A program made the position numbers and the translations under genes. Positions 11,456 through 54,875 of a DNA stretch of 64,000 nt are shown here, piece by piece. The number at the start of each line of letters is the position of its first letter. Within the stretch, counting starts at the first letter, position 1. Location of the stretch: contig JASEVX010000005.1 in assembly GCA_031761405.1 (NCBI GenBank), positions 1,438,571-1,502,570 on the forward strand. The letters run 5' to 3'. Source of the stretch: Serripes groenlandicus (taxonomy: Eukaryota > Mollusca > Bivalvia > Cardiida > Cardiidae). The notes under the pieces were generated by a model that ran no database searches, was not told the DNA's origin, and saw nothing but the letters and a program-made list of their open reading frames with translations.

Positions 11456-13790
11456 AAAATTCCCCGAACAAATTCTATCCGAACACGAACATATTTAACC
11501 GGAACACGAACATATTCTACCCGAACAAATTTTAACTGAACAAAACCAATTATACCCGAACACAAACCATTACCAGAATAAATTTTACCCGAAAAAAATA
11601 TACCCGAACACGAACAAATTTTACGTGAATTTTTTTTATCAGAACAATTTCTACCCGAACACGAACATATATTACCTGAAAAATTTCTGCCGGAACATAT
11701 TTTACCCGAAAAAAATATACCCTAACACGAACAAATTTTATCTGAAAAATGTTTATCCGAACAATTTCTACCCTAACACGAACATATTTTACCCGAACAA
11801 TTTCTAGCCGAACATATTATACCCGAACAAATTCTACCCGAAAAAAATATACCCGAACACGAACAAATTTTATCGGAAAAATGTTTATCTGAACAATTTC
11901 TACCCGAACACGAACATATTTTACCCGAACACGAACACATTTCTACCAGAACAAATTTTACCCGAACAATATATAAACGAATGTATTTTACCCGAAAAAA
12001 ATATACCCGAACACGAAAATATTTTACACGAACAAATTTTACCCGAACACGAACCAATTTTACCCGAACAATTTATACCCGAATATATTTTACCCGAAAA
12101 GAAATAGCCGAACACGAAAACATTTTACATGAACAAATTTTACACGAACAAATTTTACCAAAAATTATTACCCGAACACGAACATATTTTATCCGAACAC
12201 GAACAAATTTTATCGGAAAACATTTGATCCAAACAATTTCTACCAGAACAAATTTTACCCGAACACAAACAAATTTTACCCGAACATTTTATACCCGAAT
12301 ATATTTTAACCGAACAAATTATAGCCGAAAAAAATATACCCGAACACGAGAAATTTAACCCGAACAAATTCTACCCGAACACAAACAAATTTTATCGAAA
12401 AATTTTACCCGAATATATTTATACCCGAACAAATTCTACCCGAAAAAAATATACCGGAACACGAACAAATTTTATCGGAAAACATCCGAACAATTTCAAC
12501 CCGAAAATATTTTACACGAACAAATTTTACCCGAACATTTATTATCCGAACAATTTTTACCAGAACACGAACATATTTTAACCGAACAAATTCTACCCGA
12601 ACACGAACAAATTTTATCGGAAAACATTTTAACCCGAACAATTTATACCCGAACATATTTTACTCGAACATTTTTTATCCGAACAATTTTTAGCCGAACA
12701 CGAACATATTTTACCCGAACAAATTCTACCCGAAAACGAAGAAATATTATCGGAAAACAAAAATCCGAACAATTTCTACCCGAACACGAAAATATTTTAC
12801 ACGAACAAATTTTACCCGAACACGAACATATTTTACCCGAACACGAACAAATTTTATCGGAAAACATTTTAACCCGAACAATTTATACCCGAACATATTT
12901 TACTCGAACATTTTTTATCCGAACAATTTTTACCCGAACACGAACATATTTTACCCGAACACAAACAAATTTTATCGGAACACATTTTAACCCGAACAAT
13001 TTATACCCGAACATATTTTACTCGAACATTTTTTATCCGAACAATTTTTACCCGAACACGAACATAGTTTACCCGAACAAATTCTACCAGAACACGAAGA
13101 AATTTTATCGGAAAACATTTTATCCGAACAATTTCTCCCCGAACAAATTTTACCCGAATTTTTTTTATCCGAACAATTTTTACCCGAACACGGACACATT
13201 TTATCCAAACAATTTCTACCCAAACATGAACAAATTTTATCGGAATACATTTTATCCGAACAATTTTTACCCGAATATATTTTACCCGAACAAATTGTAC
13301 CAGAAAAAAGCATACCCGAACACAAACAAATATTATCGGAAAACATTTTATCCGAACAATTTCTATCAAATTTTACCCGAACACGAACAAATTTTACCCA
13401 AATATATTTTACCCGAACAATTTTTATCCGAACAATTTTTACCTGAAAAAATTCTACCCGAACACGAACACATTTTATCGGAAAACATTTCATCCGAACA
13501 CATTTTATCGGAAAACATTTTATCCGAACAATTTCTACCCGAACAAATTTTACCCGAACTTTTTTTATCCGAACAATTTTTACCCGAACACAAACATATT
13601 TTACACGAACACAAACAAATTTTATCGGAAAACATTTTATCCAAACAATTTCTACCCGAACACGAACAAATTTTACCCGAACACGAAGATGTTTTACCCG
13701 AACACGAACACATTTTATCGGAAAACATTTTATCCGAACAAATTTTATTTTATCCGAACAATTTCTACCCGAACAAATTTTACCCGATAA
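11456..13790 (+). repeat. 2.3-kb degenerate CCGAACACGAACA minisatellite
   Basis: Built from shuffled short phrases: 'tacccgaacacgaacaaatt', 'tatcggaaaacattt', 'tatccgaacaattt' and 'cccgaaaaaaatata'. Higher-order units of ~60-150 bp recur. Open frames of up to 195 codons on both strands simply reflect the scarcity of stops in the unit, and I do not treat them as genes. Confidence 0.9.
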
Positions 13791-18292: not shown

Positions 18293-19923
18293 TGTTTTGA
18301 ACGAAGCAACTAAAAATACCGAAACACTAATCACATTATTATCCAGTGAAAACATTTCATGAATAAAAATATTTACTCCCTGTAATTGAGCAATAGCAAT
18401 CAGAACAAGAGCTGTCGGAGGACAGCGCGCTCGACTATTCCACAGCTTATTTAAGTTACTGAGATAATGGACTGTAATGTAGTTGCATGCAAAACATTAA
18501 CCACAATTTCTTAAAGGGTGATAATTTTCATTATATGCAGGATAGAGTTATTTAACTTGATTATCTTAATAGGTGCGATGGTTAGGAAGGGTTGTATAAC
18601 GTTTCAATGGATATGCATCAAGTAGTTAATAAGATATGGACTCTTAATGTAGTTGCATGCAAACCTTTAACCATAATTTCTAAGTAAAAAAAACGGCAAC
18701 AATTTGCACCATAAGCAGGAAAGAGTTATCTTAATTGGTTGTGTTTTTTTAGTTGTGAAATTGGGAAAGAAAGGTTGTATAAAGTTTCAATACAATAGTT
18801 CCAAGTTTTTAATGAGATTACTCTCTAAACTAACATACATGTGATGATTGGATGGGGCTGTATAAAGTTTCAATGCAATGCATGAAATAATTACTAAGAT
18901 ATGGTCTCTTAATGTAGTTGCATGCAAAACTTTAACCAGAATGTATAAGTCCAAAAAGGGCCATAACTTGCATAAAATGCAGGATAGAGTTATTTAACTT
19001 GAAAATCAACATAGGTATGATAGTTGGAAAGGGTTGTATAAAGTTTCAAAGCAATGAATAAAGTAAATACTAGGATATCAACTCTTAATGTAGTTGCATG
19101 CAAAACTTTAACCAAATTTCTAGTTAAAAAAGGGCCATAAATTGCAAAATATACTAGATAGAGTTATCATACTTGATTGTTTACATAGGTGTGATGGTTG
19201 GGAAGGGTTGTATAAAGTTTCAATGCAATGCATCAATTAGTTACTAAGAGATGGTCTCTTAATGTAATTGTATACATAACTTTAACCAGAATTTCTAAGT
19301 AAAAAAAGGGCCATTACTTGCATAAAATGCAGGAGAGTTATCTAACTTGAATTCTACATAGGTGTGATAGTTGGGTACGGTTGTATAAAGTTTCAATGCA
19401 ATGCATGAAGTAAATACTGAGATATGGACTCTTAATTTAGTTGCACGCAAAACTTTAACCAGAATTTCTAAATAAAACAAGAGCACTGCCCGCGGGTGCC
19501 TGACGCTCGTCTGTTATTATCCTTTTACGATTTATTTGTTTTATATAAAAAATATTCAAATTCGGAAATAATATTCACATATTATAATGACCGCACACAA
19601 TTGCTATTTTTCAAGAAATGAAACAAGATCAACTATGTGGAAATAAATACAAGTTCATATACATGATAAGAAAGATCTTCACGTTGGATGGCTGTCACAA
19701 TCAGTCAAGATCATAAGCTGAGTCTTGTGTATGCAATGGACAGGCAAATGATATTGGTACATTAAGTCAACTTTAACTAAAGATATTAAATATATTACTA
19801 TTTTCCTATGTTAAGTAACAGCGACCTTGACCCCCCAAAACACAATCTGTTTTAAGATATTCATAATATGTTGAAGTACATTATGTTTTTATTGTTTGGG
19901 AAAAATTTGAAATTAATGTATCA

Positions 19924-20976: not shown

Positions 20977-21713
20977 AAAACAGGCTACACTCAGCATCTT
21001 TAGCATAAAATGTGAAGAAGGGTATTAGATGAACAAGTTTTCCATGTTTCAAAGTATTATGTTTGATAGTTTCCATGTAAGTGACCTAAACGCAAAACTT
21101 AACCAATAACGACGATCAAGTGACGACAATAGCTCGTCTTTTTTTTTAAAAAATCAGACAAGCTAAAAAGGGCCATAACTTGCACAAAATGCAGGATATA
21201 GTTATCTAACTTGATAATCTACAAAGGTGTGATAGTTGGGTAGGGTTGTAGAAAGTTTCAATGCAATGTATCAAGTAAATACTGAGATATGGACTCTTAA
21301 TTTAGTTGCATGCAAAACTTTAACCAGAATTTCTAAGTTAAAAAAAAGGGCCATAACTTGCATAAAATGCAGGATAGAGTTATCTTATTTGATAATCTAC
21401 ATAAGTGTGATAGTAGGGTAGGGTTGTATAAAGTTTCAATGCAATGCATGAAGTAAATACTGAGATATGGACTCTTAATTTAGTTGCACGCAAAACTTTA
21501 ACCAGAATTTCTAAGTAAAAAAGGGGCATAATATGCAGGATAGAGTTATCTAACTTCATGGTGTGATGGTTTGATAGGGTTGTAGAAAGTTTCAATGCAA
21601 TACATCTAGTATTTTAGTACTTGCATGCAAAACCTTAATCAAGGTGTGACATAGATGCCGACGCCAGGGTGAGTAGTATAGCTCAAATATTCTTCGAAAA
21701 GTCGAGCTAAAAA

Positions 21714-22415: not shown

Positions 22416-23400
22416 ACAAGAGCGCCAAATGTCACAAAATACGCCTGTCCTGGTTTTTTGAGACCAATTAAGTATAGTGATAATTGGTTGTACATCAGGC
22501 AAATTTAAAGAGCAGACACTGTTAGTACAGTTTTGGCCATTTTGAGGGACATAAGTGTGTAGTGACTAAGATAACGTGGTAAGTTATCGAACTTGTCCAA
22601 GATATTATGCCAATACACATTCTGATCAAATTTGGTGATGATTGGACAAAGGCTTCTAAAGTTATTGAGCTGACAAGACCAATTTTAGGTAATTTCTATA
22701 ATTAAAGGGCGATAACTCTTGATTGACTTAAGCTATATGGCTAGTTATAAACCTTGTCCGAGATATTATGCCAATACACATTCTGAATAAATTTGGTGAA
22801 GATTGGACAAAGGCTTCTCAAGTTATTGAGCTGACAATCCCAATATTAGGTAATATTTTTAATAAAAGGGCAATAACTCTTGATTGACTTAAGCGATATG
22901 GCTAGTTATCGAACTTGTCCGAGATATTATGCCAATACATATTCTGACTAAATATGGTGATGATTGGACAAAGGTTTCTAAAGTTATTGAGCTGACAAGA
23001 CCAATTTTAGGTAATTTCTTTAATAAAAGGGTGATAACTCTTGATTGACTAAAGCGATATGGCTAGTTATCGAACTTGTCTGAGATATTATCCCAATACA
23101 CATTCTGACTAAATTTGGTGATGATTGCACAAAGGCTTCTACAGTTATTGAGCTGACAAGACCAATTTTGGGTAATGTCTATAATTAAAGGGCGATAACT
23201 CTCGATTGACGAAAGCGATATGGCTAGTTATCGAACGTGTCCGAAATATTATCCCAATACACATTCTGACCAAATTTGGTGATGATTGGACAAAGGCTTC
23301 TAAAGTTATTGAGCTGACAACATACTGGACGCCGCCCGCCCGCCTGTACGCCGCAGATAAAACTATATTATGATCCTTTTTTTCAAAACGGGCGTATAAA
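22416..23400 (+). mobile_element. ACAAGAGCGCC element with ~170-bp internal repeats
   Basis: Starts ACAAGAGCGCCAAATGTCAC, then ATACGCC. It ends with GC-rich 'gacgccgcccgcccgcctg' and TTTTTTCAAAACGGGCGTATAAAA. Four or five direct units contain 'gggcgataactcttgattga', 'gatatggctagttatcgaac' and 'aaggcttctaaagttattga'. Related in reverse at 60117-61285. Confidence 0.75.
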
Positions 23401-25918: not shown

Positions 25919-25924
25919 AATGAT
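25919..25924 (+). repeat. 6-bp target-site duplication, left
   Basis: AATGAT immediately before the AGTAGT terminus; the identical hexamer follows the other end. Polintons/Mavericks are known for 6-bp target duplications made by a retroviral-type integrase. Confidence 0.8.
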
Positions 25925-25949
25925 AGTAGTATAGGCGTCGGTTTAGGTG

Positions 25950-26020
25950 TAAACAAAGATGACGTAATCGGCGGCCATTTTGTTGACCTAGTTACTATTT
26001 ATAGTATCTCATTTGCATAT
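25950..26020 (+). promoter_or_regulatory. subterminal CRE/YY1/MEF2/octamer motif cluster, left
   Basis: Within 100 bp of the terminus lie TGACGTAA, GGCGGCCATTTTG, CTATTTATAG (25995-26004) and ATTTGCAT. Together they resemble an enhancer-like cluster; no experimental basis. Mirrored at 35187-35257. Confidence 0.3.
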
Positions 26021-26105
26021 AAGGATTGACAGGAGTGAGGACGCCATTTTGTAGTTATACAATGACTGCGCATGTCCATTTTAGTTCTATATCTAGAATG
26101 ACATC

Positions 26106-26375
26106 ATGGGTCTATATTTAGAAAGCTTTAACAATGGAGCAAGTGTTTCAGTAGCACCCTTCGGGCGAGACCACCAACGATTTGTCTCTAGCCTTCTACC
26201 AATAGATTCTAGCGGGTATGTTGTTGGAACCCTCGAAAATAATGGCGGGGAAATTCGACCTAACCTTTGCTACATTGTTTCGGGAAACCTGACACGAGAC
26301 ATCCATACGACACGATATATCCCTTTAATATGTCGTATAGTCGAGCCGAAGCACGCAGTCAAACATGTATGGTAA
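26106..26375 (+). CDS. hypothetical 89-residue protein, left copy (doubtful)
   Basis: An open frame pointing inward, opposite to the main genes of this arm. I recognise no domain, signal or membrane helix. The start (M-G-L-Y-L-E-S) and a middle segment (EIRP-LCYIVS) recur in frame in the truncated relative at 26599-26690. That could mean coding constraint, or simply that the DNA repeat spans both places. Its first codons overlap a CTATATTTAG decamer, which favours a non-coding explanation. Confidence 0.2.
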   Translation: MGLYLESFNNGASVSVAPFGRDHQRFVSSLLPIDSSGYVVGTLENNGGEIRPNLCYIVSGNLTRDIHTTRYIPLICRIVEPKHAVKHVW

Positions 26376-27310
26376 AGCAATAAATGTAACGTCTTACCTC
26401 GAGAACGTCCAGAGTTCAAATGACAGATGCGCATGTCCTGACACCACGATCTATTTTTAGACTCGGTATTTCACCATATTTTTATAAATAGATTATGTGT
26501 CATGTTCTATAAATAGATTATATGTCATTTACTATAAATAGATTATATGTCATTTACTATAAATAGATATTTCTAATAGTTCTATATTTAGAATGACATC
26601 ATGGGTCTATATTTAGAAAGTGTTGGAGCTGGCGGAGAAATTCGACCTACCCTTTGCTACATTGTTTCATGGGAATCCATACGACACGATATATCCCTTT
26701 AGTATAGTCGGCACATAGTCAAACATGTATGGCAATAAATGTAACGTCTTACCTCTAGAGCGTCCAGAGTTCAAATGACAGAGGTCCCGATCTATTTTTA
26801 GTTTCGATATTTCACAACCACTATCGAATATTTCATCAGACCAGGTGTACCAACAATAGAGCATTGAAATGACAAAGTTAATCTCATTTAAAGGCGCCAT
26901 ACTGTCTGCGTCTGAACACCTGCAACGAACGTGTTAACACTTGTCTGAGAATAACACTTTACAGTGCGGTTTCAAAACCTGAATATTGACAGAGTTTCAA
27001 ACTCATAACCCTCATCGTATTGCTCTCAGGTGTGTTAGCATTGACCCATTATCAGAGTCATCAGATTGTGTTCATTTGGTGACGGAAGTACGGACAAAGA
27101 CCTTTTGAAATGCTAAACACGATATATCCCTTTTGTATGTCATATAGTCGAGTCGAAGCACGCAGTCAAACATGTATGGTAAAGCAATAAATTTAACGTC
27201 TTACCTCTAGAACGTCCAGATCTCAAATGACCGATGCGCATGTCCCAATTTATTTTTAGATTCGATATTTCACCATCGCTATCGGATATTTCATCAGAAA
27301 CTCAACAGGT
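26308..27310 (+). repeat. three diverged ~150-bp direct repeats, left arm
   Basis: Units near 26308-26480, 26689-26830 and 27116-27310 share 'acacgatatatcccttt', 'gtcaaacatgtatgg', 'caataaatgtaacgtctta' and 'cgtccagagttcaaatgac'. They lie inside the arm end and are mirrored at 33897-34899. Confidence 0.7.
26482..26616 (+). promoter_or_regulatory. six MEF2-like decamers on a 25-bp period, left
   Basis: YTAWWWWTAG decamers start at 26482, 26507, 26532, 26557, 26582 and 26607, exactly 25 bp apart. A further pair (26087 imperfect, 26112) has the same spacing. Isolated perfect CTAWWWWTAG copies lie at 25995, 26451 and 26792. The palindromic core matches the MADS/MEF2 consensus and includes TATAAATAG. 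Role unknown; iteron-like or promoter-like. Confidence 0.55.
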
Positions 27311-27857
27311 GTGAGAACAATATAGCATTGAAATGCCAAAGAAAACGTGGACAATGGATGAATAGACTGCTTTAAACCAAACGGCGCCACAGTGTCTGAA
27401 GAACATCTGCACGTTAACACTTGCCTGAGAATAACCCTTTACACTGCTGTTCAAAAGTTTATCCTTCATGATGAAAGTTATTATTATGTTTGAATTTGCA
27501 CTTGAAAAGTGTCAGTGAAGTTATACACGACTTTACCAAATTGATCATATTTCAAATATAGCGGTAAAAGGAGCCCATTAAAAGCGTCAAATCAGTTTTT
27601 ACTAATTCATTTCACTATTTACGCTTTAACTTTTTCTCTTTATGCTACCAAATGATAGAGGTCACCAAAAGCTTTCATTTAAACCCGGGGTTGTAGAGAA
27701 AATATTCAGCCGTTTTCGAGTTATGTAATATGAGAGATTTTTAAACCCCCAAAATGAACTTGCCCCGATCCTCAAGTTTGATATACCATTGGAAAGATCT
27801 CGTTGCGCCCTTTTCATATATGAAAAAATTATGGTCCTACGAATATTAGTTCTCTAG

Positions 27858-28070
27858 TTATCGTCGTTTTAAATATGTGTTTGTTTCAAAGTGCGTCAAA
27901 AGGCTTCTTAATGCGTAAATGCCGATAACTCCTTTATTTCTTGTCCGAATGTAGTCGTGTTTGGACTCGTTGAAAAGGGTTTCGTAAACTCTATCGATTG
28001 AGGAGGTCAAACCGGAAGTTTGGTCTGTCTGTAAACCGGAAGTGTCGTCATTATATTTTACAATGGTCAT
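27858..28070 (-). CDS. hypothetical 70-residue ORF, left copy (doubtful)
   Basis: Open frame on the same strand as the main genes, ~390 bp beyond the 86-residue gene and past both poly(A) signals. No recognisable motif; basic C terminus. It may be part of a non-coding terminal region. Confidence 0.15.
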   Translation of the reverse strand: MTIVKYNDDTSGLQTDQTSGLTSSIDRVYETLFNESKHDYIRTRNKGVIGIYALRSLLTHFETNTYLKRR

Positions 28071-28247
28071 ATCTTCCTTAGTTCTGAACCGATGTTTACA
28101 ATTTGTATATCATTCGAAAGCTCTCATCGAGATATGAGTATATTCGAAGTTGAAAGATATCCGATCAATGTTTTCATGACATTGTACTTTAAATAAGCAG
28201 CGCAAGGGGTAAATGAAAAACAAAGACATGAATACAATTTCTACAAT

Positions 28248-28305
28248 TTTATTATATAATCAAGTATTGTAGTTCGCATAATCAAAATAACTAACACTAT
28301 TTATT
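28248..28305 (-). terminator. poly(A) signals, left cluster
   Basis: AATAAA on the minus strand at 28300-28305 and 28248-28253, ~160-215 bp after the 86-residue gene stops. They could end transcripts of the whole left cluster. Confidence 0.5.
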
Positions 28306-28464
28306 GAACACAGTATTCACAAATTACGATTCATTAAGGGATAAAAATGATTGTCAATTCGTCTCATATTCCATCCATGACGTCTATGAATAACTGTCAA
28401 CCGTTCCGTTATGTTGTAAACGTGGTTAATTTAGGGCTCCCCCCGGCATTTTCTTTCCGATAAT

Positions 28465-28725
28465 TTAGTCACGTAGTCCCGGTGGTCCGTGTATTCGATA
28501 CCCCTTTTTCGCATTGTCAATCATGGTATGTTGTCTTTTACTGGATACCTCTGATTTGGCTAGTTCAACAGCTTGAGCCACGGGTGTCACAAAGTTAATG
28601 GTGGGTTCTTTCATCGTCCCACCCATCTGAATTTTTTCCACGACGTATTGTCCTTTATGATTAGGTTTCAACTTCCCTTCGGCCATCCGTTGAAAATGTC
28701 GTGTCCACATTTCTACTCTATCCAT
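28465..28725 (-). CDS. conserved-type 86-residue protein, left copy
   Basis: Third gene of the left cluster. Small, basic in its first half and rich in polar residues. A central 'FVTPVAQAVELAKSE' stretch looks like an amphipathic helix. No enzyme motif, signal peptide or membrane helix. It is preceded by its own TATAAGGGG motif overlapping the end of the C2HC gene. In Polinton/adintovirus-type genomes small basic proteins next to the ATPase are often virion components, so a core or accessory structural role is possible, but that is inference. Identical to the right copy. Confidence 0.6.
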   Translation of the reverse strand: MDRVEMWTRHFQRMAEGKLKPNHKGQYVVEKIQMGGTMKEPTINFVTPVAQAVELAKSEVSSKRQHTMIDNAKKGYRIHGPPGLRD

Positions 28726-28791
28726 CGTTGACGTAAGTGAAGTACACAGCGAGTGATAGTTTTATCTTTGGCTATTAGCTGTAACTTTCCT

Positions 28792-28800
28792 CCCCTTATA
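28792..28800 (-). promoter_or_regulatory. TATAAGGGG promoter-like motif, left 86-residue gene
   Basis: Minus-strand TATAAGGGGAGGA, 67 bp upstream of the start codon and overlapping the stop of the preceding gene. The same motif lies before the ATPase gene. Confidence 0.45.
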
Positions 28801-29539
28801 GCATGTCTTCACCATCACTGTCGTCGCTACCACCATAGCTAACGTCGTCGTTCTCAGACTTCACTATACCTTCTATTAAATAACTGTGTTTTTTAATGGC
28901 CGACTGTATGGCCTGTTCTAGTATCATTCCCTCGGACACGAGTTCGTGTACATCTTCCATGACACGTTGGTGAATGACTCCGTGTTCTAATTGGAATGTG
29001 TGGAGAAGCAGTTGGCTATACATACGTAAGACATGTGTTGTATCTTCCGCTACTATTTTTGAGTCTGCCTTTTTCTTGGCCTCGTCATTGGACATTCCAT
29101 CTCGCTCATACTTTTCCACTTTTTTTCGCCAAGATTTTTCATTATTGTTCGAAGCTTTACGGTACATGACTTCAAACACTTTGTGTTCTTCGCTGTCTTT
29201 ATCTTTTACATCTTCTTCGCTCTGGTCATAGGATATCCACCGTTTTAATGGAGGCGTTTCCGAGTGATCCTCCGTGGCAGAACGCTTATTACACCATCGT
29301 TTGACATGATTTTGTAAAGAATGAACGTCACCAAACACGATACCACAATCGTCGCAAACGGGCATGTCTAGACTGTTATCAGACTCGAGGCTGGAATCAC
29401 TCTTTATGTACTCCACAGGGGTGTCCCTTATAGTTTTCTTAACTGAATATCCTCGCTGATCATACGCTGGAGTATCACTTATATACTTGTGTTCAGCTAC
29501 TGATACATTCTGTTCAAAAATGTTTGGTCTAAGTCGCAT
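28796..29539 (-). CDS. C2HC zinc-finger protein with ATPase-tail frame, left copy
   Basis: 247 residues if started at the ATG within the ATPase 3' end (43-nt overlap, -1 frame). One finger: C62-x2-C65-x12-H78-x4-C83. It is followed by a charged, probably helical region (about 120-215, W-x-K-K-V then an EAKKKA stretch) and a strongly acidic tail (last ~20 residues rich in D/E/S). The opening residues, including RLRPNIF, look like the end of the ATPase domain, so translation may come from frameshifting on the ATPase message instead of the internal ATG. DNA binding or packaging partner is plausible, not shown. Confidence 0.65.
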   Translation of the reverse strand: MRLRPNIFEQNVSVAEHKYISDTPAYDQRGYSVKKTIRDTPVEYIKSDSSLESDNSLDMPVCDDCGIVFGDVHSLQNHVKRWCNKRSATEDHSETPPLKRWISYDQSEEDVKDKDSEEHKVFEVMYRKASNNNEKSWRKKVEKYERDGMSNDEAKKKADSKIVAEDTTHVLRMYSQLLLHTFQLEHGVIHQRVMEDVHELVSEGMILEQAIQSAIKKHSYLIEGIVKSENDDVSYGGSDDSDGEDML

Positions 29540-30519
29540 GTATTCGGGTGTAGAGGCTTGAAGATCAATAACGAGATGTCCATATGGCTTTTCTGTGGCG
29601 TTTCGATATACATTCTGTGACTACTGGTAGGGTAGATCCGTCGTGCCAGTACAGAAATTTGATGTCTATCAACTGGGTTGTTAAACACAATTAAATATTT
29701 TGTATTAAGGCTGATATCTCGGCACGCTTTTCCTTGAGGAAAAACGTTCTGTGTCAGGAAAATGACCGTCAAGTTTCTATGATGAGATCCTTTAGTAAAA
29801 AGATTAGCCACTCTTTCATCCTTCTTCGCCTCTCCCATCAAATCATCTAATATGATGCAGTTCCGCACGTTTACGTCTAGATACATATCTTGTTCAAGAC
29901 AGTCTGGAATACCCCTCACAAATTCAACGTTAGACAATTCTGTCTTGATTTCGTCGTATAATGGTTGATTTTGACTATAACACCAGATGATCCTCTGAGG
30001 TGGTGGTTGGATTGTATCTTGGCACAATATCATCTTAGTCAATACCGATTTACCACTTCCACTCGGCCCAGACAAAACGAGTGTACACGGATGTTTAAAC
30101 TTAAATACGGGCGCTCCGGGCGCTCCCAAATGCGCTCCGGGAGCTCCCAAATGCGCTCCGGGAGCTCCCAAATGCGCTCCGGGCGCTCCCAAATGCGCTC
30201 CGGGAGCTCCCAAATGCGCTCCGGGAGCTCCTAAATGCGCTCCGGGCGCTCCCAAATGCGCTCCCAGATGCGCTCCGGGCGCTCCCAGATGCGCTCCGGG
30301 AGCTCCCAGATGCGCTCCGGGCGCTCCCAAATGCGCTCCGGGCGCTCCCAAATGCGCTCCGGGCGCTCCCTCATATTGTTGTACTCCTGGTGATATATTC
30401 CAGTATCTTTGGTCTGTATGTGAAGATGGTTCTTCAAAGTGTTTGTTTCTCTCATGTCTCATTAGATTGTATCTACTACAGAACGTCTGATCACACGTTG
30501 TACAGAAAATTGTACTCAT
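29497..30519 (-). CDS. packaging-type P-loop ATPase with zinc finger and GAPGAHL linker, left copy
   Basis: 340 residues, mirror of 30688-31710 and identical in translation. C2H2 finger (C6, C9, H22, H27), GAPGAHL repeats (51-137), Walker A GPSGSGKS (151-158), Walker B IILDD (222-226) and a polar-sensor Q in LTQN (255-258). FtsK/HerA-type ATPases of this kind load DNA into capsids in Polintons, adintoviruses and large DNA viruses. The start lies 41 nt downstream of a TATAAGGGG motif in the central spacer region. The frame ends prematurely: the expected tail is in the -1 frame shared with the next gene, exactly as in the right copy. Confidence 0.8.
   Translation of the reverse strand: MSTIFCTTCDQTFCSRYNLMRHERNKHFEEPSSHTDQRYWNISPGVQQYEGAPGAHLGAPGAHLGAPGAHLGAPGAHLGAPGAHLGAHLGAPGAHLGAPGAHLGAPGAHLGAPGAHLGAPGAHLGAPGAHLGAPGAPVFKFKHPCTLVLSGPSGSGKSVLTKMILCQDTIQPPPQRIIWCYSQNQPLYDEIKTELSNVEFVRGIPDCLEQDMYLDVNVRNCIILDDLMGEAKKDERVANLFTKGSHHRNLTVIFLTQNVFPQGKACRDISLNTKYLIVFNNPVDRHQISVLARRIYPTSSHRMYIETPQKSHMDISLLIFKPLHPNTCDLDQTFLNRMYQ
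30109..30369 (-). repeat. 21-bp in-frame coding minisatellite, left ATPase
   Basis: Eleven 21-bp units plus a 12-bp partial, GC-rich and built from GGAGCGC/GGAGCTC, encode GAPGAHL. Alternative frames stay open (RPERIWE on the coding strand, RSGSSQM on the other), which explains the shadow ORFs. Confidence 0.9.
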
Positions 30520-30559
30520 CTTTTCAAAGTCGTGTGTTGCAGTTTATTGTGAATATCCT

Positions 30560-30568
30560 CCCCTTATA
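30560..30568 (-). promoter_or_regulatory. TATAAGGGG promoter-like motif, left ATPase
   Basis: Minus-strand TTTATAAGGGGAGGATAT, about 41 nt upstream of the left ATPase start, back-to-back with the right one across the spacer. Confidence 0.5.
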
Positions 30569-30577
30569 AACTTACAG

Positions 30578-30629
30578 AGCGCTCGGAGCGCTCCGGGAGA
30601 CCGGGCTCCCGGAGCGCATTTGGGAGCGC
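30578..30629. other. asymmetric central spacer with 12-bp hairpin
   Basis: The only stretch that does not mirror. It contains GCGCTCCGGGAG (30588-30599) and CTCCCGGAGCGC (30606-30617), a perfect 12-bp stem with a 6-nt loop, plus extra GGAGCGC pieces like those in the ATPase minisatellite. It separates the two divergent promoters. Confidence 0.8.
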
Positions 30630-30638
30630 CTGTAAGTT

Positions 30639-30647
30639 TATAAGGGG
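30639..30647 (+). promoter_or_regulatory. TATAAGGGG promoter-like motif, right ATPase
   Basis: TTTATAAGGGGAAGATAT, 40 nt upstream of the ATPase start at 30688. Differs from the left copy by one base in the motif tail. Confidence 0.5.
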
Positions 30648-30687
30648 AAGATATCCACAATAAACTGCAACACACGACTTTGAAAAG

Positions 30688-31710
30688 ATGAGTACAATTT
30701 TCTGTACAACGTGTGATCAGACGTTCTGTAGTAGATACAATCTAATGAGACATGAGAGAAACAAACACTTTGAAGAACCATCTTCACATACAGACCAAAG
30801 ATACTGGAATATATCACCAGGAGTACAACAATATGAGGGAGCGCCCGGAGCGCATTTGGGAGCGCCCGGAGCGCATTTGGGAGCGCCCGGAGCGCATCTG
30901 GGAGCTCCCGGAGCGCATCTGGGAGCGCCCGGAGCGCATCTGGGAGCGCATTTGGGAGCGCCCGGAGCGCATTTAGGAGCTCCCGGAGCGCATTTGGGAG
31001 CTCCCGGAGCGCATTTGGGAGCGCCCGGAGCGCATTTGGGAGCTCCCGGAGCGCATTTGGGAGCTCCCGGAGCGCATTTGGGAGCGCCCGGAGCGCCCGT
31101 ATTTAAGTTTAAACATCCGTGTACACTCGTTTTGTCTGGGCCGAGTGGAAGTGGTAAATCGGTATTGACTAAGATGATATTGTGCCAAGATACAATCCAA
31201 CCACCACCTCAGAGGATCATCTGGTGTTATAGTCAAAATCAACCATTATACGACGAAATCAAGACAGAATTGTCTAACGTTGAATTTGTGAGGGGTATTC
31301 CAGACTGTCTTGAACAAGATATGTATCTAGACGTAAACGTGCGGAACTGCATCATATTAGATGATTTGATGGGAGAGGCGAAGAAGGATGAAAGAGTGGC
31401 TAATCTTTTTACTAAAGGATCTCATCATAGAAACTTGACGGTCATTTTCCTGACACAGAACGTTTTTCCTCAAGGAAAAGCGTGCCGAGATATCAGCCTT
31501 AATACAAAATATTTAATTGTGTTTAACAACCCAGTTGATAGACATCAAATTTCTGTACTGGCACGACGGATCTACCCTACCAGTAGTCACAGAATGTATA
31601 TCGAAACGCCACAGAAAAGCCATATGGACATCTCGTTATTGATCTTCAAGCCTCTACACCCGAATACATGCGACTTAGACCAAACATTTTTGAACAGAAT
31701 GTATCAGTAG
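30688..31710 (+). CDS. packaging-type P-loop ATPase with zinc finger and GAPGAHL linker, right copy
   Basis: 340 residues. An N-terminal C2H2 finger (C6-x2-C9-x12-H22-x4-H27) is followed by a 40-residue polar segment, then eleven GAPGAHL repeats (51-137) and a compact ATPase domain with Walker A at 151-158, Walker B at 222-226 and LTQN at 255-258. These are features of virus-type DNA-packaging ATPases of the FtsK/HerA class, which act at the capsid portal. I chose ATG 30688 because the finger begins at once and a promoter-like motif precedes it. After about residue 300 the frame loses family resemblance. The likely native tail (LVIDL, RLRPNIF) is in the -1 frame from ~31587 onward. Either a programmed -1 frameshift or an old lesion; being in both arms, it predates or was copied with the palindrome. 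Confidence 0.8.
   Translation: MSTIFCTTCDQTFCSRYNLMRHERNKHFEEPSSHTDQRYWNISPGVQQYEGAPGAHLGAPGAHLGAPGAHLGAPGAHLGAPGAHLGAHLGAPGAHLGAPGAHLGAPGAHLGAPGAHLGAPGAHLGAPGAHLGAPGAPVFKFKHPCTLVLSGPSGSGKSVLTKMILCQDTIQPPPQRIIWCYSQNQPLYDEIKTELSNVEFVRGIPDCLEQDMYLDVNVRNCIILDDLMGEAKKDERVANLFTKGSHHRNLTVIFLTQNVFPQGKACRDISLNTKYLIVFNNPVDRHQISVLARRIYPTSSHRMYIETPQKSHMDISLLIFKPLHPNTCDLDQTFLNRMYQ
30838..31098 (+). repeat. 21-bp in-frame coding minisatellite, right ATPase
   Basis: Eleven GGAGC(G/T)CCCGGAGCGCAT(T/C)TG units with one 12-bp partial after the fifth, same order of variants as the left arm. Confidence 0.9.
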
Positions 31711-32411
31711 CTGAACACAAGTATATAAGTGATACTCCAGCGTATGATCAGCGAGGATATTCAGTTAAGAAAACTATAAGGGACACCCCTGTGGAGTACA
31801 TAAAGAGTGATTCCAGCCTCGAGTCTGATAACAGTCTAGACATGCCCGTTTGCGACGATTGTGGTATCGTGTTTGGTGACGTTCATTCTTTACAAAATCA
31901 TGTCAAACGATGGTGTAATAAGCGTTCTGCCACGGAGGATCACTCGGAAACGCCTCCATTAAAACGGTGGATATCCTATGACCAGAGCGAAGAAGATGTA
32001 AAAGATAAAGACAGCGAAGAACACAAAGTGTTTGAAGTCATGTACCGTAAAGCTTCGAACAATAATGAAAAATCTTGGCGAAAAAAAGTGGAAAAGTATG
32101 AGCGAGATGGAATGTCCAATGACGAGGCCAAGAAAAAGGCAGACTCAAAAATAGTAGCGGAAGATACAACACATGTCTTACGTATGTATAGCCAACTGCT
32201 TCTCCACACATTCCAATTAGAACACGGAGTCATTCACCAACGTGTCATGGAAGATGTACACGAACTCGTGTCCGAGGGAATGATACTAGAACAGGCCATA
32301 CAGTCGGCCATTAAAAAACACAGTTATTTAATAGAAGGTATAGTGAAGTCTGAGAACGACGACGTTAGCTATGGTGGTAGCGACGACAGTGATGGTGAAG
32401 ACATGCTATAA
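31668..32411 (+). CDS. C2HC zinc-finger protein, right copy
   Basis: 247 residues from the internal ATG at 31668, overlapping the ATPase by 43 nt. The frame is open from 31587 (stop TAG at 31584-31586), so about 27 extra codons upstream could be read by -1 shifting from the ATPase. C2HC finger at 62-83, basic/acidic helical region, acidic C-terminal tail. Identical to the left copy. The stop codon overlaps the TATAAGGGG motif of the next gene. Function unknown; its constant partnership with the ATPase suggests a packaging or core role. Confidence 0.65.
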   Translation: MRLRPNIFEQNVSVAEHKYISDTPAYDQRGYSVKKTIRDTPVEYIKSDSSLESDNSLDMPVCDDCGIVFGDVHSLQNHVKRWCNKRSATEDHSETPPLKRWISYDQSEEDVKDKDSEEHKVFEVMYRKASNNNEKSWRKKVEKYERDGMSNDEAKKKADSKIVAEDTTHVLRMYSQLLLHTFQLEHGVIHQRVMEDVHELVSEGMILEQAIQSAIKKHSYLIEGIVKSENDDVSYGGSDDSDGEDML

Positions 32412-32415
32412 GGGG
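32407..32415 (+). promoter_or_regulatory. TATAAGGGG promoter-like motif, right 86-residue gene
   Basis: CTATAAGGGGAGGA overlapping the preceding stop codon, 66 nt before ATG 32482. Confidence 0.45.
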
Positions 32416-32481
32416 AGGAAAGTTACAGCTAATAGCCAAAGATAAAACTATCACTCGCTGTGTACTTCACTTACGTCAACG

Positions 32482-32742
32482 ATGGATAGAGTAGAAATGT
32501 GGACACGACATTTTCAACGGATGGCCGAAGGGAAGTTGAAACCTAATCATAAAGGACAATACGTCGTGGAAAAAATTCAGATGGGTGGGACGATGAAAGA
32601 ACCCACCATTAACTTTGTGACACCCGTGGCTCAAGCTGTTGAACTAGCCAAATCAGAGGTATCCAGTAAAAGACAACATACCATGATTGACAATGCGAAA
32701 AAGGGGTATCGAATACACGGACCACCGGGACTACGTGACTAA
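32482..32742 (+). CDS. conserved-type 86-residue protein, right copy
   Basis: Mirror of 28465-28725 with the same translation. The 70-nt gap after the C2HC gene carries only the promoter-like motif, so this gene may have its own transcript. Two AATAAA signals follow at 32902 and 32954. No family is named with confidence. Start choice: first ATG of the frame, directly followed by the W-T-R-H-F-Q-R-M-A-E-G segment. Confidence 0.6.
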   Translation: MDRVEMWTRHFQRMAEGKLKPNHKGQYVVEKIQMGGTMKEPTINFVTPVAQAVELAKSEVSSKRQHTMIDNAKKGYRIHGPPGLRD

Positions 32743-32901
32743 ATTATCGGAAAGAAAATGCCGGGGGGAGCCCTAAATTAACCACGTTTACAACATAACG
32801 GAACGGTTGACAGTTATTCATAGACGTCATGGATGGAATATGAGACGAATTGACAATCATTTTTATCCCTTAATGAATCGTAATTTGTGAATACTGTGTT
32901 C

Positions 32902-32959
32902 AATAAATAGTGTTAGTTATTTTGATTATGCGAACTACAATACTTGATTATATAATAAA
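32902..32959 (+). terminator. poly(A) signals, right cluster
   Basis: AATAAA at 32902-32907 and 32954-32959, with T-rich sequence about 25-40 nt beyond the second. Confidence 0.5.
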
Positions 32960-33136
32960 ATTGTAGAAATTGTATTCATGTCTTTGTTTTTCATTTACCC
33001 CTTGCGCTGCTTATTTAAAGTACAATGTCATGAAAACATTGATCGGATATCTTTCAACTTCGAATATACTCATATCTCGATGAGAGCTTTCGAATGATAT
33101 ACAAATTGTAAACATCGGTTCAGAACTAAGGAAGAT

Positions 33137-33349
33137 ATGACCATTGTAAAATATAATGACGACACTTCCGGTTTACAGACAGACCAAACTTCCGGTTTGA
33201 CCTCCTCAATCGATAGAGTTTACGAAACCCTTTTCAACGAGTCCAAACACGACTACATTCGGACAAGAAATAAAGGAGTTATCGGCATTTACGCATTAAG
33301 AAGCCTTTTGACGCACTTTGAAACAAACACATATTTAAAACGACGATAA
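33137..33349 (+). CDS. hypothetical 70-residue ORF, right copy (doubtful)
   Basis: Mirror of 27858-28070, beyond the poly(A) signals. Nothing recognisable; listed because it is the only frame on the gene strand in the ~2.3 kb between the signals and the terminal repeats apart from 34307-34540, which merely spans repeat units. Confidence 0.15.
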   Translation: MTIVKYNDDTSGLQTDQTSGLTSSIDRVYETLFNESKHDYIRTRNKGVIGIYALRSLLTHFETNTYLKRR

Positions 33350-33896
33350 CTAGAGAACTAATATTCGTAGGACCATAATTTTTTCATATATGAAAAGGGC
33401 GCAACGAGATCTTTCCAATGGTATATCAAACTTGAGGATCGGGGCAAGTTCATTTTGGGGGTTTAAAAATCTCTCATATTACATAACTCGAAAACGGCTG
33501 AATATTTTCTCTACAACCCCGGGTTTAAATGAAAGCTTTTGGTGACCTCTATCATTTGGTAGCATAAAGAGAAAAAGTTAAAGCGTAAATAGTGAAATGA
33601 ATTAGTAAAAACTGATTTGACGCTTTTAATGGGCTCCTTTTACCGCTATATTTGAAATATGATCAATTTGGTAAAGTCGTGTATAACTTCACTGACACTT
33701 TTCAAGTGCAAATTCAAACATAATAATAACTTTCATCATGAAGGATAAACTTTTGAACAGCAGTGTAAAGGGTTATTCTCAGGCAAGTGTTAACGTGCAG
33801 ATGTTCTTCAGACACTGTGGCGCCGTTTGGTTTAAAGCAGTCTATTCATCCATTGTCCACGTTTTCTTTGGCATTTCAATGCTATATTGTTCTCAC

Positions 33897-34899
33897 ACCT
33901 GTTGAGTTTCTGATGAAATATCCGATAGCGATGGTGAAATATCGAATCTAAAAATAAATTGGGACATGCGCATCGGTCATTTGAGATCTGGACGTTCTAG
34001 AGGTAAGACGTTAAATTTATTGCTTTACCATACATGTTTGACTGCGTGCTTCGACTCGACTATATGACATACAAAAGGGATATATCGTGTTTAGCATTTC
34101 AAAAGGTCTTTGTCCGTACTTCCGTCACCAAATGAACACAATCTGATGACTCTGATAATGGGTCAATGCTAACACACCTGAGAGCAATACGATGAGGGTT
34201 ATGAGTTTGAAACTCTGTCAATATTCAGGTTTTGAAACCGCACTGTAAAGTGTTATTCTCAGACAAGTGTTAACACGTTCGTTGCAGGTGTTCAGACGCA
34301 GACAGTATGGCGCCTTTAAATGAGATTAACTTTGTCATTTCAATGCTCTATTGTTGGTACACCTGGTCTGATGAAATATTCGATAGTGGTTGTGAAATAT
34401 CGAAACTAAAAATAGATCGGGACCTCTGTCATTTGAACTCTGGACGCTCTAGAGGTAAGACGTTACATTTATTGCCATACATGTTTGACTATGTGCCGAC
34501 TATACTAAAGGGATATATCGTGTCGTATGGATTCCCATGAAACAATGTAGCAAAGGGTAGGTCGAATTTCTCCGCCAGCTCCAACACTTTCTAAATATAG
34601 ACCCATGATGTCATTCTAAATATAGAACTATTAGAAATATCTATTTATAGTAAATGACATATAATCTATTTATAGTAAATGACATATAATCTATTTATAG
34701 AACATGACACATAATCTATTTATAAAAATATGGTGAAATACCGAGTCTAAAAATAGATCGTGGTGTCAGGACATGCGCATCTGTCATTTGAACTCTGGAC
34801 GTTCTCGAGGTAAGACGTTACATTTATTGCTTTACCATACATGTTTGACTGCGTGCTTCGGCTCGACTATACGACATATTAAAGGGATATATCGTGTCG
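33897..34899 (-). repeat. three diverged ~150-bp direct repeats, right arm
   Basis: Mirror of the left-arm set: units near 33897-34091, 34377-34518 and 34727-34899. The 77-residue frame at 34307-34540 crosses one unit and is not counted as a gene. Confidence 0.7.
34591..34725 (-). promoter_or_regulatory. six MEF2-like decamers on a 25-bp period, right
   Basis: Mirror of 26482-26616, about 560-690 bp from the right terminus. Confidence 0.55.
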
Positions 34900-35101
34900 T
34901 ATGGATGTCTCGTGTCAGGTTTCCCGAAACAATGTAGCAAAGGTTAGGTCGAATTTCCCCGCCATTATTTTCGAGGGTTCCAACAACATACCCGCTAGAA
35001 TCTATTGGTAGAAGGCTAGAGACAAATCGTTGGTGGTCTCGCCCGAAGGGTGCTACTGAAACACTTGCTCCATTGTTAAAGCTTTCTAAATATAGACCCA
35101 T
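34832..35101 (-). CDS. hypothetical 89-residue protein, right copy (doubtful)
   Basis: Mirror of 26106-26375, reading inward from the right end. No domain recognised, and it overlaps the CTAWWWWTAG motifs. Confidence 0.2.
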   Translation of the reverse strand: MGLYLESFNNGASVSVAPFGRDHQRFVSSLLPIDSSGYVVGTLENNGGEIRPNLCYIVSGNLTRDIHTTRYIPLICRIVEPKHAVKHVW

Positions 35102-35186
35102 GATGTCATTCTAGATATAGAACTAAAATGGACATGCGCAGTCATTGTATAACTACAAAATGGCGTCCTCACTCCTGTCAATCCTT

Positions 35187-35257
35187 ATATGCAAATGAGA
35201 TACTATAAATAGTAACTAGGTCAACAAAATGGCCGCCGATTACGTCATCTTTGTTTA
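35187..35257 (-). promoter_or_regulatory. subterminal CRE/YY1/MEF2/octamer motif cluster, right
   Basis: Mirror of the left cluster: ATGCAAAT, CTATAAATAG, CAAAATGGCCGCC and TTACGTCA approaching the terminus. Confidence 0.3.
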
Positions 35258-35282
35258 CACCTAAACCGACGCCTATACTACT

Positions 35283-35288
35283 AATGAT
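35283..35288 (+). repeat. 6-bp target-site duplication, right
   Basis: AATGAT directly after the ACTACT terminus, identical to 25919-25924. The inferred empty site is a single AATGAT between 'catatattg' and 'attagagtgg'. Confidence 0.8.
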
Positions 35289-35580
35289 ATTAGAGTGGAA
35301 CGAAAAATACTGATTACACAGTATGGGGGTTGATACAAAATCCTTTTTTTTATTATGCGCATCTGCTATCTAAGTAGTTCCTGTTTATATTAGCACATTG
35401 TTATATTGACAAGCGCGTATCCAGGCTTACGCACGAACGCCAATGCGTACACTTCGTCAGAGAAATTGAAAAAATAAAAGGTTCAAATTTGCAATAAAAA
35501 TTGAAGGCTGAGGAGGGTAACGGCTATGAAGAATGAAGAATGAGTATCAGTCTACCACTTCGTGCAGTTTGGTTAGAACC
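35289..35580. other. right flank of the palindrome
   Basis: Unique non-palindromic sequence, no gene seen. Confidence 0.35.
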
Positions 35581-35584
35581 GACT

Positions 35585-35740
35585 CGATCGGTGGTTTAAT
35601 GGTTATGATGTCCGCCTCGAGAGCGGGCGGTCATCCCCGGTCGGGTCATACCAAAGACTTGACTGTGGTAGTAGTTATTTATCTCCATGGTGCTAAAGTG
35701 TTGCGGACGGGTGAACTGGCGTAAGGATAAACTTCAAATC
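35585..35740 (+). mobile_element. tRNA-derived SINE
   Basis: GGTGGTTTAATGGTTATGATG resembles an A box and anticodon-arm start, followed by CCGCCTCGAGAGCGGGCGG and 'ccccggtcgggtcataccaaagactt'. A headless relative is at 46470-46590. The frames across it are by-products. Confidence 0.5.
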
Positions 35741-37220: not shown

Positions 37221-37384
37221 CGGTTCATTTATCACACAGTAAAGTATACACATAGCCGGTGGTCGAAATTAAAAATTAAACATCGTAACTATAAAAAGAA
37301 TTTACAATAGTTTGTGAAATACTTTAACGTAAAATTACTTGCTCAAATAAGAGTTCTTGGTGCATATATTTGTTTCGAATACAG

Positions 37385-39160
37385 GACAAAAGATCCCATG
37401 GACAAAAGCTCCCATGCTATTTTTGACAGGGTGGACAAAAGGTCCCATATCATTTTAATAGGGTGGACAAAAGATCCCATGTTATTTTAACAGGGTGGAC
37501 AAAAGTTCCCACACCATTTTGACAGGATGGACAAAAGATCCCATATTGATGAGCCATCCAGGTTTTTGTCTTAAGGTGACAGACAGTTAAGGCGTTGAGT
37601 ATATTTACTTCTTATTAAATGATTTCATAGAAAAATAAACCAGAAAAAACCAAAGAGATTAATTAAGTCAAATTTATTCCCTGTTAATAAAAATTATGAA
37701 TAAATATATGGCAAACAAAATATAGCATATGGTAACTACTAGTGTTGAAAATTTAGCACATCATGATAATAAAACAATGAAAAGTGGATGTACATTTATT
37801 TACAAACAAAACTGCTTTCAAAGTAGTTCATGCAGACATATTCAATCAACACACAGTCTGGTCATTGTCATTAACACAGCTATTTATAAAGTTCACACCA
37901 ATAATATGCTCAATGTTTTATTTTTCACAGTTTATGTAAAGAGTTCAATTAACAACACAATTTAAACTTTGATTGCCTTTAATTTAAAATAGCAGGTGAT
38001 AACTTTGACCCTCTACATTAATTGGCTGTTTACCTTGAAATTCACATCCATTATATGCTCAATGGATAGGAATTATATATTCATATAGTTTATTCATTTC
38101 AATCTCTTTATTACTGACTGATATATATTATAAGTGGGATCTTTTGTCCACCCTGCCAAAATGATGCGGGAGCTTTTGTCCACCCTGTTAAAATAACATG
38201 GGATCTTTTGTCCACCCTGTAAAAATGATGTGGGAGCTTTTGTCCACCCTGCTAAAAACAGCATGGGATCTTTTGTCCATGGGATCTTTTGTCCGGCTCC
38301 CAACCATCATTTTAATAGGGTGGACAAAAGATCCCATGTTATTTTAACAGGGTGGACAAAAGTTCCCACACCATTTTGACAGGATGGACAAAAGATCCCA
38401 TATTGATGAGCCATCCAGGTTTTTGTCTTAAGGTGACAGACAGTTAAGGCGTTGAGTATATTTACTTCTTATTAAATGATTTCATAGAAAAATAAACCAG
38501 AAAAAACCAAAGAGATTAATTAAGTCAAATTTATTCCCTGTTAATAAAAATTATGAATAAATATATGGCAAACAAAATATAGCATATGGTAACTACTAGT
38601 GTTGAAAATTTAGCACATCATGATAATAAAACAATGAAAAGTGGATGTACATTTATTTACAAACAAAACTGCTTTCAAAGTAGTTCATGCAGACATATTC
38701 AATCAACACACAGTCTGGTCATTGTCATTAACACAGCTATTTATAAAGTTCACACCAATAATATGCTCAATGTTTTATTTTTCACAGTTTATGTAAAGAG
38801 TTCAATTAACAACACAATTTAAACTTTGATTGCCTTTAATTTAAAATAGCAGGTGATAACTTTGACCCTCTACATTAATTGGCTGTTTACCTTGAAATTC
38901 ACATCCATTATATGCTCAATGGATAGGAATTATATATTCATATAGTTTATTCATTTCAATCTCTTTATTACTGACTGATATATATTATAAGTGGGATCTT
39001 TTGTCCACCCTGCCAAAATGATGCGGGAGCTTTTGTCCACCCTGTTAAAATAACATGGGATCTTTTGTCCACCCTGTAAAAATGATGTGGGAGCTTTTGT
39101 CCACCCTGCTAAAAACAGCATGGGATCTTTTGTCCATGGGATCTTTTGTCCGGCTCCCAT
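37385..39160. mobile_element. fold-back element of GGACAAAAGATCCCAT repeats, with 857-bp tandem duplication
   Basis: The left end has ~50-bp units 'agggtggacaaaagatccca' and the right end the inverse 'gggatcttttgtccaccct', giving long iterated inverted repeats. From 37449 to 38302 the sequence is repeated at 38306-39159 (offset 857), apparently without change, including both short ORFs. The junction falls in the right-hand repeat block. No transposase. Confidence 0.75.
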
Positions 39161-52964: not shown

Positions 52965-54875
52965 TTCTGAGCTGACTGTCTAAAGGGTCTGAGCTGACTG
53001 TCTAAGGGGTCTGACCTGACTGTCTAAAGGGTCTGAAATGACTGTCCAAGGGGTCTGAGCTGACTGTCTAAAGGGTCTGATCTGACTCTCTAAAGGGTTT
53101 GAAGTGACTGTTCAAAAGGTCTGAGCTGACTGTCTAAAGGGTCTGAGATGACTGTCTAAAGGGTCTTAGCTGACTGTCTAAAGGGTGTGAACTGACTGTT
53201 TAAAGGTCTGTGCTGACTGTCTAAAGGGTCTGAGATGACTGTCTAAAGGGTCTTAGCTGACTGTCTAAAGGGTCTGAGCTGACTGTCTTAAGGGCTGAAC
53301 TGACTGTCTAAGGGGTCTGAGCCGAGTTTATAAATGGTCTGAGCTGACTGTCTAAGAAGTCTGACCTGACTTTATAAATGGTCTGAGCTGACTGTCTAAA
53401 GGGTCTGACCTGACGTTTTATATGGTCTGAGCTGACGTTTTAAATGGTCCGAGCTGACTGTCTAAAGGGTCTGAGCTGACTGTCTAGATTATCTGAGCTG
53501 ACTGTCTAAGGGGTCTGAGCTTACTTTATAGATGGTCTGAGCTGACTGTCTAAGGGGTCTGCGCTGACTGTCTTAAGGGCTGAGCTGACTGTCTAAAGGG
53601 TCTCAGCTGACTGTCTCAATTGTCTGAGCTGACTGTCGAAGGGGTCTGAGCTGACTTTATAAATGGTCTGAGCTGACTGTCTACGGGGTCTGAGATGACT
53701 TTATAAATGGTCTGAGCTGACTGTCTAAAGGGTCTGAGCTGACTATCTAAATTGTCTGAGCTGACTGTCTAAGGGGTCTAAGCTGACGTTTTAAATGGTC
53801 TGAGCTGACTGTCTAAAGGGTCTGACCTGACGTTTTAAATGGTCTGAGCTGACTGTCTAAAGGGTTGAGCTGAGTGTCTAAAGAGTCTGACCTGACGTTT
53901 AAAATGGTCTGAGCTGACTGTCTAAGGGGTCTGAGCTGACTGTCTAAATGGTCTAAGCTGACTGTCTAAGGGGTCTGAGCTGACTTTTTAAATGGTCTGA
54001 GCTGACTGTGTTAAGGGTCTAAGCTGAGTGTCTAAAGAGTCTGAGCTGACTGTCCACAGAGTCTGAGCTGAATGTCTAAAGAGTCTGAGCTGACTGTCTA
54101 AAGAGTCTGAGCTGACTGTCTAAAGAGTCTGAGCTGACTGTCTAAAGAGTCTGAGCTGACTGTCTAAAGAGTCTGAGCTGACTGTCTAAATAGTCTGAGC
54201 TGACTGTCTAAAGAGTCTGAGCTGAATGTCTATAGGGTCTGAGCTGACTGTCTAAAGGATGTGAACTGACTGTTTAAAAGAGCTGAGCTGACTGTCTAAA
54301 GGGTCTGAGCTGACTGTCTAAAGTGTCTGAGTTAACTGTCGAATGCGTCTAAGCTAACTGTCTAAATGGTCTGAGATGAGTGTCTAAGGGGTCTGAGCTG
54401 ACTGTCTTCTGGGTATGAGCGTGACTGTCTAAAGGGTCTGAGATGAGTGTCTAAGGGGTCTGAGCTGACTGTCTAAAAGATCTGAGCTAACAGTCTTTTG
54501 AGTCTGAGCTGACTGTCTTTTGGATCTGAGCTAACTGTCTTCTGGGTATGAGCGTGACTGTCTAAATGGTCTGAGATGAGTGTCTAAGGGGTCTGAGCTG
54601 ACTGTCTTAAGGATCTGAGCTAAACAGTCTTTTGGGTCTGAGCTGACTGTCTTTTGGGTCTGAGCTGACGGTCTTCTGGGTATGAGCGTGACTGTCTAAA
54701 GGGTCTGAGCTGAATGTTTAAGTTTTATGAGCTGACTGTCTAACTGGTCTGAGCTGACTGTTTAAGTTTTCTGAGCTGACTGTCTAAATGTTCTAAGCTG
54801 TCTAAAGGTACTGAGCGTGACTGGCTAAGGGGTCTGTGATGACTGGCTAAGGGATCTGAGCTGACTGTCTAGCGG
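52965..54875 (+). repeat. 1.9-kb GAGCTGACTGTCTAAAGGGTCT minisatellite
   Basis: About 85-90 copies of a 22-bp unit with variant sub-blocks: 'ttataaatggtct', 'aagagtct' (homogeneous at 54061-54230) and 'cttttgggtct'. Non-coding. Confidence 0.95.

Follow-up and report, generated by a model that had tools for sequence, protein, structure and literature searches.

A palindromic element with Polinton-type ends in the Serripes groenlandicus assembly, a candidate integrated snap-back genome

Within a 64,000-nucleotide (nt) stretch of the genome assembly of the bivalve Serripes groenlandicus (GenBank assembly GCA_031761405.1, contig JASEVX010000005.1, forward-strand positions 1,438,571 to 1,502,570; hereafter the window), positions 25925-35282 are occupied by a 9,358-nt element that is palindromic over its whole length and is bounded by a target site duplication. 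With moderate confidence, the element is interpreted as a snap-back genome that arose from a Polinton/adintovirus-like element and became integrated. The palindrome is confirmed at the level of the assembled sequence.

Palindrome, ends and centre

On comparison with its own reverse complement, the element matched at 9,320 of 9,358 positions, and a repeat finder delimited two arms of 4,653 nt each, lying 52 nt apart with no net insertion or deletion (indel). A preliminary description made from the letters of the window had claimed two mirrored arms of this length, and both their coordinates and their symmetry held on re-computation. The only mismatches between the arms are at 30552/30655 and 30558/30649, and both are transitions. 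The symmetry ends immediately outside the element boundaries, and the longest other inverted repeat of the window, a pair of satellite arrays, spans 728 nt with 91% identity. Symmetry of this extent is far beyond chance.

That the ends of the element carry Polinton-type insertion marks is supported by two features. The element opens with AGTAGTATAGG and closes with CCTATACTACT, hence its termini are AG...CT, and Polintons start with AG. In addition, the sequence AATGAT directly abuts the element on both sides as a 6-bp target site duplication (TSD); as judged by random pairs of window positions, a 6-nt match occurs by chance in 110 of 200,000. A passage in PMC12220804 states that the retrovirus-type (rve) integrases of polinton-like viruses typically leave 6-bp TSDs, and one in PMC8547959 gives a duplication of 5-6 bp for mavirus and Maverick-Polinton insertions.

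When the middle 206 nt were folded as single-stranded DNA, a single hairpin was obtained (-104 kcal/mol, as compared with a mean of -21 for shuffled sequences). The 52-nt centre is mostly paired, with 18 further pairs closing on the 6-nt loop ACCGGG, and its stem is interrupted by an internal loop of 3 vs 6 nt and one bulged base. The centre contains an inverted repeat of 12 bp with a loop of 6 nt, and the 26 nt at its right edge (30605-30630) are an exact copy of minisatellite sequence in the ATPase open reading frame (ORF), as found by self-BLAST. The promoter regions of the two ATPase gene copies face each other across a small hairpin loop. A sequencing adapter as the source of the centre was rejected, the centre being minisatellite-like.

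All differences between the two sides, substitutions and centre indels alike, lie no more than 54 nt from the axis. Both substitutions fall in the innermost 26 nt of the arm, and the outer 4,627 nt contain none. Were two substitutions placed at random, both would fall in the innermost 78 nt with p=0.0003 and in the innermost 26 nt with p=0.00003, these limits having been set post hoc, after the positions were known. As the differences crowd near the axis, they are tied to the birth of the palindrome or to its tip and not to slow decay; such a pattern would follow if copying was primed by a short, imperfect inverted repeat that already existed, or if the hairpin tip was later revised. By the rule of three, divergence of the outer arms is less than ~0.0007 per site, and the palindrome is therefore young, homogenised or an artefact.

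Gene content

The preliminary description assigned three genes to each arm, for an ATPase, a C2HC protein and an 86-residue product. The two arms do have the same content, but the ATPase and C2HC ORFs are parts of one frame-broken gene, so that there are two genes per arm. In tblastn searches, seven of seven ATPase relatives tried (from 120 listed) and the ATPase of a distant DNA relative, L001, gave alignments to the window that pass from one reading frame into another; three separate genes were rejected because the relatives align through both ORFs. The frame change is common to both arms, falling near 31590 in the right arm and at the mirror position near 29617 in the left. Unless a programmed frameshift operates, the ATPase gene thus appears to be broken identically in both arms; the break is therefore probably older than the palindrome, and the source copy would already have been damaged.

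The arrangement in relatives is consistent with a single gene. In P0002 and P0010 a finger, the ATPase, the C2HC motif and a C-terminal tail are within one protein, P0006 and P0012 combine the ATPase, C2HC motif and tail without the first finger, and P0001 is without the C-terminal tail. The protein search with the ATPase domain returned 641 of 795 candidates at E<=0.001, and 23 of the 120 listed matches were chosen for alignment with the window domain. The family is very numerous, with 1,802 member sequences in cluster P0072. One relative, P0049, comes under a Candidatus Thiodiazotropha metagenome-assembled genome (MAG); it probably represents host DNA that was binned with a symbiont.

The ATPase named in the preliminary description is predicted to be a packaging enzyme of the adenovirus IVa2/A32/adintovirus kind. 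The N-terminal ORF gave weak matches to the Pfam families Adeno_IVa2 and Pox_A32, neither of which reached its curated cut-off. A structural model of this ORF from the window itself (mean predicted local distance difference test score 77) had as its best match in PDB the packaging NTPase B204 of Sulfolobus turreted icosahedral virus 2 (template modelling score ~0.5), and its top matches in BFVD were adenovirus IVa2, a Klosneuvirus P-loop protein and the FtsK of a Drosophila-associated adintovirus. By sequence, the best match in PDB was to splicing factor 3A subunit 2 (5.4e-05); it covers residues 52-140, where the GAPGAHL repeat lies, and was rejected as an effect of composition. The ATPase protein had no match among phage records, and PHROGs gave nothing informative for the three ORFs of the window.

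For the 86-amino-acid (aa) ORF, 14 of 14 candidates were homologous, the best (P0121, on a 1,107-nt contig) being 99% identical. There was no Pfam match to this ORF, and it is a guess that its product is a small virion protein. Four copies of the promoter-like box TATAAGGGGA[AG]GA are present in the window, all within the element; in each arm one precedes the ATPase gene and one the 86-aa ORF.

No family-B DNA polymerase (PolB) was found in the four ORFs scanned against Pfam or by tblastn with one query, the polymerase of L001. Likewise, the four ORFs gave no Pfam match to an RVE integrase, an adenain-like protease, a double jelly-roll (DJR) capsid protein or a penton, decayed remnants not having been sought with dedicated profiles. 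Further ORFs of at least 130 aa in the arms are confined to frames that run antisense to the ATPase ORF and its minisatellite. The outermost 2.5 kb of either arm appears to be non-coding; among the short ORFs there, the homologue search covered only an 89-aa ORF near the element ends, absent from the preliminary description, for which no homologue was found. Neither Rfam (at the gathering cut-off) nor ARAGORN reported anything in the window.

Distant relative L001

The sole DNA relative found, L001, is a 7,071-nt sequence from a MAG titled bacterium isolate nzgw456, a name that may point to groundwater. It encodes a 1,224-aa family-B DNA polymerase (PF03175, 1.4e-19) and, beyond one further ORF, the related ATPase (48%), both on one strand; the polymerase matches a phage DNA polymerase family in PHROGs. 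Besides PolB and the packaging ATPase, the segment L001:155-6911 includes a small ORF that has a hydrophobic stretch. L001 is not palindromic, and apart from the ATPase neither its polymerase nor its other ORFs have a match in the window. It looks like a fragment of a Polinton-like virus and, filed as a bacterial MAG contig, is probably not bacterial DNA. L001 ties the ATPase family to PolB-bearing elements, at a distance. ATPase relatives were found on no viral contig, either in the scan with the window ATPase (2 pattern matches) or in the alignment scan (41 matches); on genome contigs there were none among 36 in one scan and one among 13, L001, in a second.

Feature positions and other repeats in the window

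The positions of the features of the element are given in Table 1.

Table 1. Features of the palindromic element and its boundaries (window positions).
Feature	Position	Strand	Basis or remark
Left target site duplication AATGAT	25919..25924	.	Direct reading; identical to 35283-35288
Left arm	25925..30577	.	Terminus begins AGTAGTATAGG
Degenerate subterminal repeats in outer, apparently non-coding left arm	26082..27456	.	Self-BLAST of arm; mirrored in right arm
86-aa ORF, left	28465..28725	-	ORF; homologue search
Promoter-like box TATAAGGGGAGG upstream of 86-aa ORF, left	28789..28800	-
ATPase gene, putative C-terminal half (C2HC motif, tail), other frame, left	28796..29620	-	tblastn; stop-to-stop ORF
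ATPase gene, putative N-terminal half (C2H2 finger, GAPGAHL repeat, packaging ATPase with P-loop), left	29497..30519	-	ORF; same protein as right copy
21-nt minisatellite inside ATPase ORF	left 30111..30370; right 30837-31096	.
Promoter-like box TATAAGGGGAGG upstream of left ATPase copy	30557..30568	-
Centre, imperfect stem continuation, minisatellite-like	30578..30629	.	Loop ACCGGG at 30600-30605
Right arm	30630..35282	.	Ends CCTATACTACT
Promoter-like box TATAAGGGGAAG upstream of right ATPase copy	30639..30650	+	Contains 30649 mismatch
ATPase gene, putative N-terminal half, right	30688..31710	+	ORF, profiles, model
ATPase gene, putative C-terminal half, right	31587..32411	+	Stop-to-stop ORF; tblastn
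Promoter-like box upstream of 86-aa ORF, right	32407..32418	+
86-aa ORF, right	32482..32742	+	ORF; homologue search
Right target site duplication AATGAT	35283..35288	.	Direct reading

Outside the element, related tandem arrays with a 174-178-bp unit are present at 649-2133, 18855-19481 and 21165-21522, and 161-bp satellite arrays at 22545-23320 and 60267-61262 are in opposite orientation and 84-91% alike. A 2.3-kb degenerate array at 11498-13787 has a unit of ~15 nt (CGAACAAATTTTACC) and several open frames, and a 22-bp satellite of ~87 copies occupies 52966-54871. Three copies of a 160-bp block of 32-nt repeats lie at 37384-37543, 38135-38294 and 38992-39151, two of them in the orientation opposite to that of the third. 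The segment at ~35580-35680 resembles the head of a tRNA-derived short interspersed nuclear element by eye only, and ARAGORN reports no tRNA there.

Discussion

The element shares with Polinton/Maverick elements and adintoviruses terminal inverted repeats (here the entire arms), a TSD within the 5-6 bp range (AATGAT) and, as judged by fold and sub-threshold profiles, a packaging ATPase of the adenovirus IVa2/A32/FtsK-HerA kind, the gene for which is frame-broken. It differs from them in that the whole element is terminal inverted repeat, in that no protein-primed PolB, RVE integrase, protease, DJR capsid or penton gene was recognised here, and in its size of 9.4 kb, as compared with the 15-20 kb given in a passage of PMC4028283. 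Its genome is self-complementary with one end duplicated in inverse, as in snap-back genomes. As PolB and the integrase were looked for and not recognised, the element is filed as a snap-back-like derivative and not as a Polinton. Hence, the designation Polinton/adintovirus-like element in the preliminary description stands for the packaging ATPase and the integration-type ends but not for a complete Polinton, no replication or capsid gene having been recognised, and 'derived from and works like' is the more fitting expression.

An integrated snap-back genome could have arisen as follows. Protein-primed strand-displacement synthesis would begin at one terminus, and the growing strand would halt among the repeats that lie upstream of the ATPase gene. 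There its 3' end would fold back on the GC-rich repeat, by means of the 12-bp inverted repeat, and the polymerase would copy the strand to its own 5' start. Since such a product has two identical ends, the polymerase of a relative or helper could replicate it and a retrovirus-type integrase acting in trans could insert it, leaving the 6-bp duplication; a single-strand hairpin form would keep one double-stranded end and could therefore be replicated from there. The element, with no recognised complete helper function, would depend on a full-length relative. We infer the protein priming, the fold-back, the helper and the integrase in trans from the structure of the element. The fold-back form proposed in the preliminary description is consistent with the centre, where a hairpin with a 6-nt loop fits snap-back formation, and the confinement of the symmetry exactly to the element, together with the TSD and the AG...CT ends, argues for this origin, as does, at a distance, the nearness of PolB to a related ATPase on L001.

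Several observations weigh against a snap-back derivative of a Polinton. No PolB or integrase is recognised in the sequence. The predicted function of the ATPase rests on fold and weak profile matches; other P-loop families score near Adeno_IVa2 and Pox_A32 (ABC_tran 0.0024), and KaiC-type ATPases score similarly to B204 in PDB. The link to L001 is distant, and the promoter box of the element is not on L001, which has a single TATAAG on the other strand. Furthermore, arms this identical, minisatellite included, fit a copying artefact too, and strand-displacement amplification in vitro could yield the same centre.

The last two points bear on the chief rival explanation, that the element is a normal one with different halves, of which the left gave an inverted chimera (by fold-back during amplification or as a hairpin read) that the assembler joined to the right flank via identical terminal repeats. 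Beyond the innermost 26 nt the two arms do not differ, even in the 21-nt minisatellite, fold-back priming is generally known to work also in vitro, and the terminal repeats and TSD of a normal element would allow an assembler to cross to the right flank. However, two coincident errors would be required, and the centre, with its two transitions and 3/6-nt internal loop, is asymmetric and minisatellite-like rather than a simple ligated joint, whereas a ligated library hairpin is expected to give a symmetric joint. An artefact of this kind is regarded as unlikely.

Formation of the palindrome in the chromosome after integration, by breakage and inverted repair or by gene conversion between halves of two head-to-head elements, is improbable. 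Chromosomal palindromes do form in this way and their centres tend to turn asymmetric, but such a process alone would give no reason for the symmetry to end precisely at the boundaries of the element, where the TSDs match on both sides, and there is no element terminus at the centre. Least probable is a propagating non-autonomous family in which the palindrome, all terminal repeat with no unique middle, is the normal form and is repeatedly mobilised by a helper: the clean ends, the 6-bp TSD and the undiverged outer arms fit recent mobilisation, and a nearly identical 86-aa protein is present in public data (P0121), but one copy was seen, no other stretch of the window matching the arm by self-BLAST.

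Snap-back genomes have counterparts among other viruses. Defective adenovirus genomes with two left ends are said to have been described by Daniell in 1976 and by Hammarskjold and Winberg in 1980, papers that PMC5033970 cites; like the element as interpreted here, these would be protein-primed linear genomes with an inverted end duplicated, but the adenovirus forms are not integrated, and the likeness is drawn without sequence comparison. PMC8235507 describes snapback genomes (5'-SBG and 3'-SBG) of adeno-associated virus (AAV) in which one genome moiety is self-complementary, symmetrically or asymmetrically; the promoters of a 3'-SBG dimer lie head to head in the centre, and replication of snapback genomes requires Rep and helper functions in trans. 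The element resembles these forms in being self-complementary, and the 3'-SBG dimer in having its ATPase promoters head to head at the centre. In contrast, AAV is a parvovirus and its genomes were sequenced from particles, whereas the element is integrated with a TSD and would be of the protein-primed kind.

No palindromic Polinton was found in the Polinton/Maverick literature at the level of titles and the beginnings of abstracts, which does not establish absence from print, and the word stem 'palindrom' does not occur in PMC11071296. One large survey retained an element only if 6-80 kb lay between its repeats (PMC12220804), and palindromic elements such as this one would be discarded under that limit. 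The wider proposition, that protein-primed integrating eukaryotic viruses yield palindromic snap-back genomes with two inverted ends only, which become integrated and propagate as a helper-dependent class that perpetuates itself, is doubtful.

If confirmed by sequencing reads, the element would preserve, in fossil form, a replication error of a Polinton-type virus. Its structure would bear witness to a linear extrachromosomal intermediate that was copied from its end, to a fold-back step and to integration in trans; to our knowledge, none of these has been directly observed for Polintons. A palindrome ending in a 6-bp duplication would also provide a simple rule by which defective forms may be sought in other genomes.

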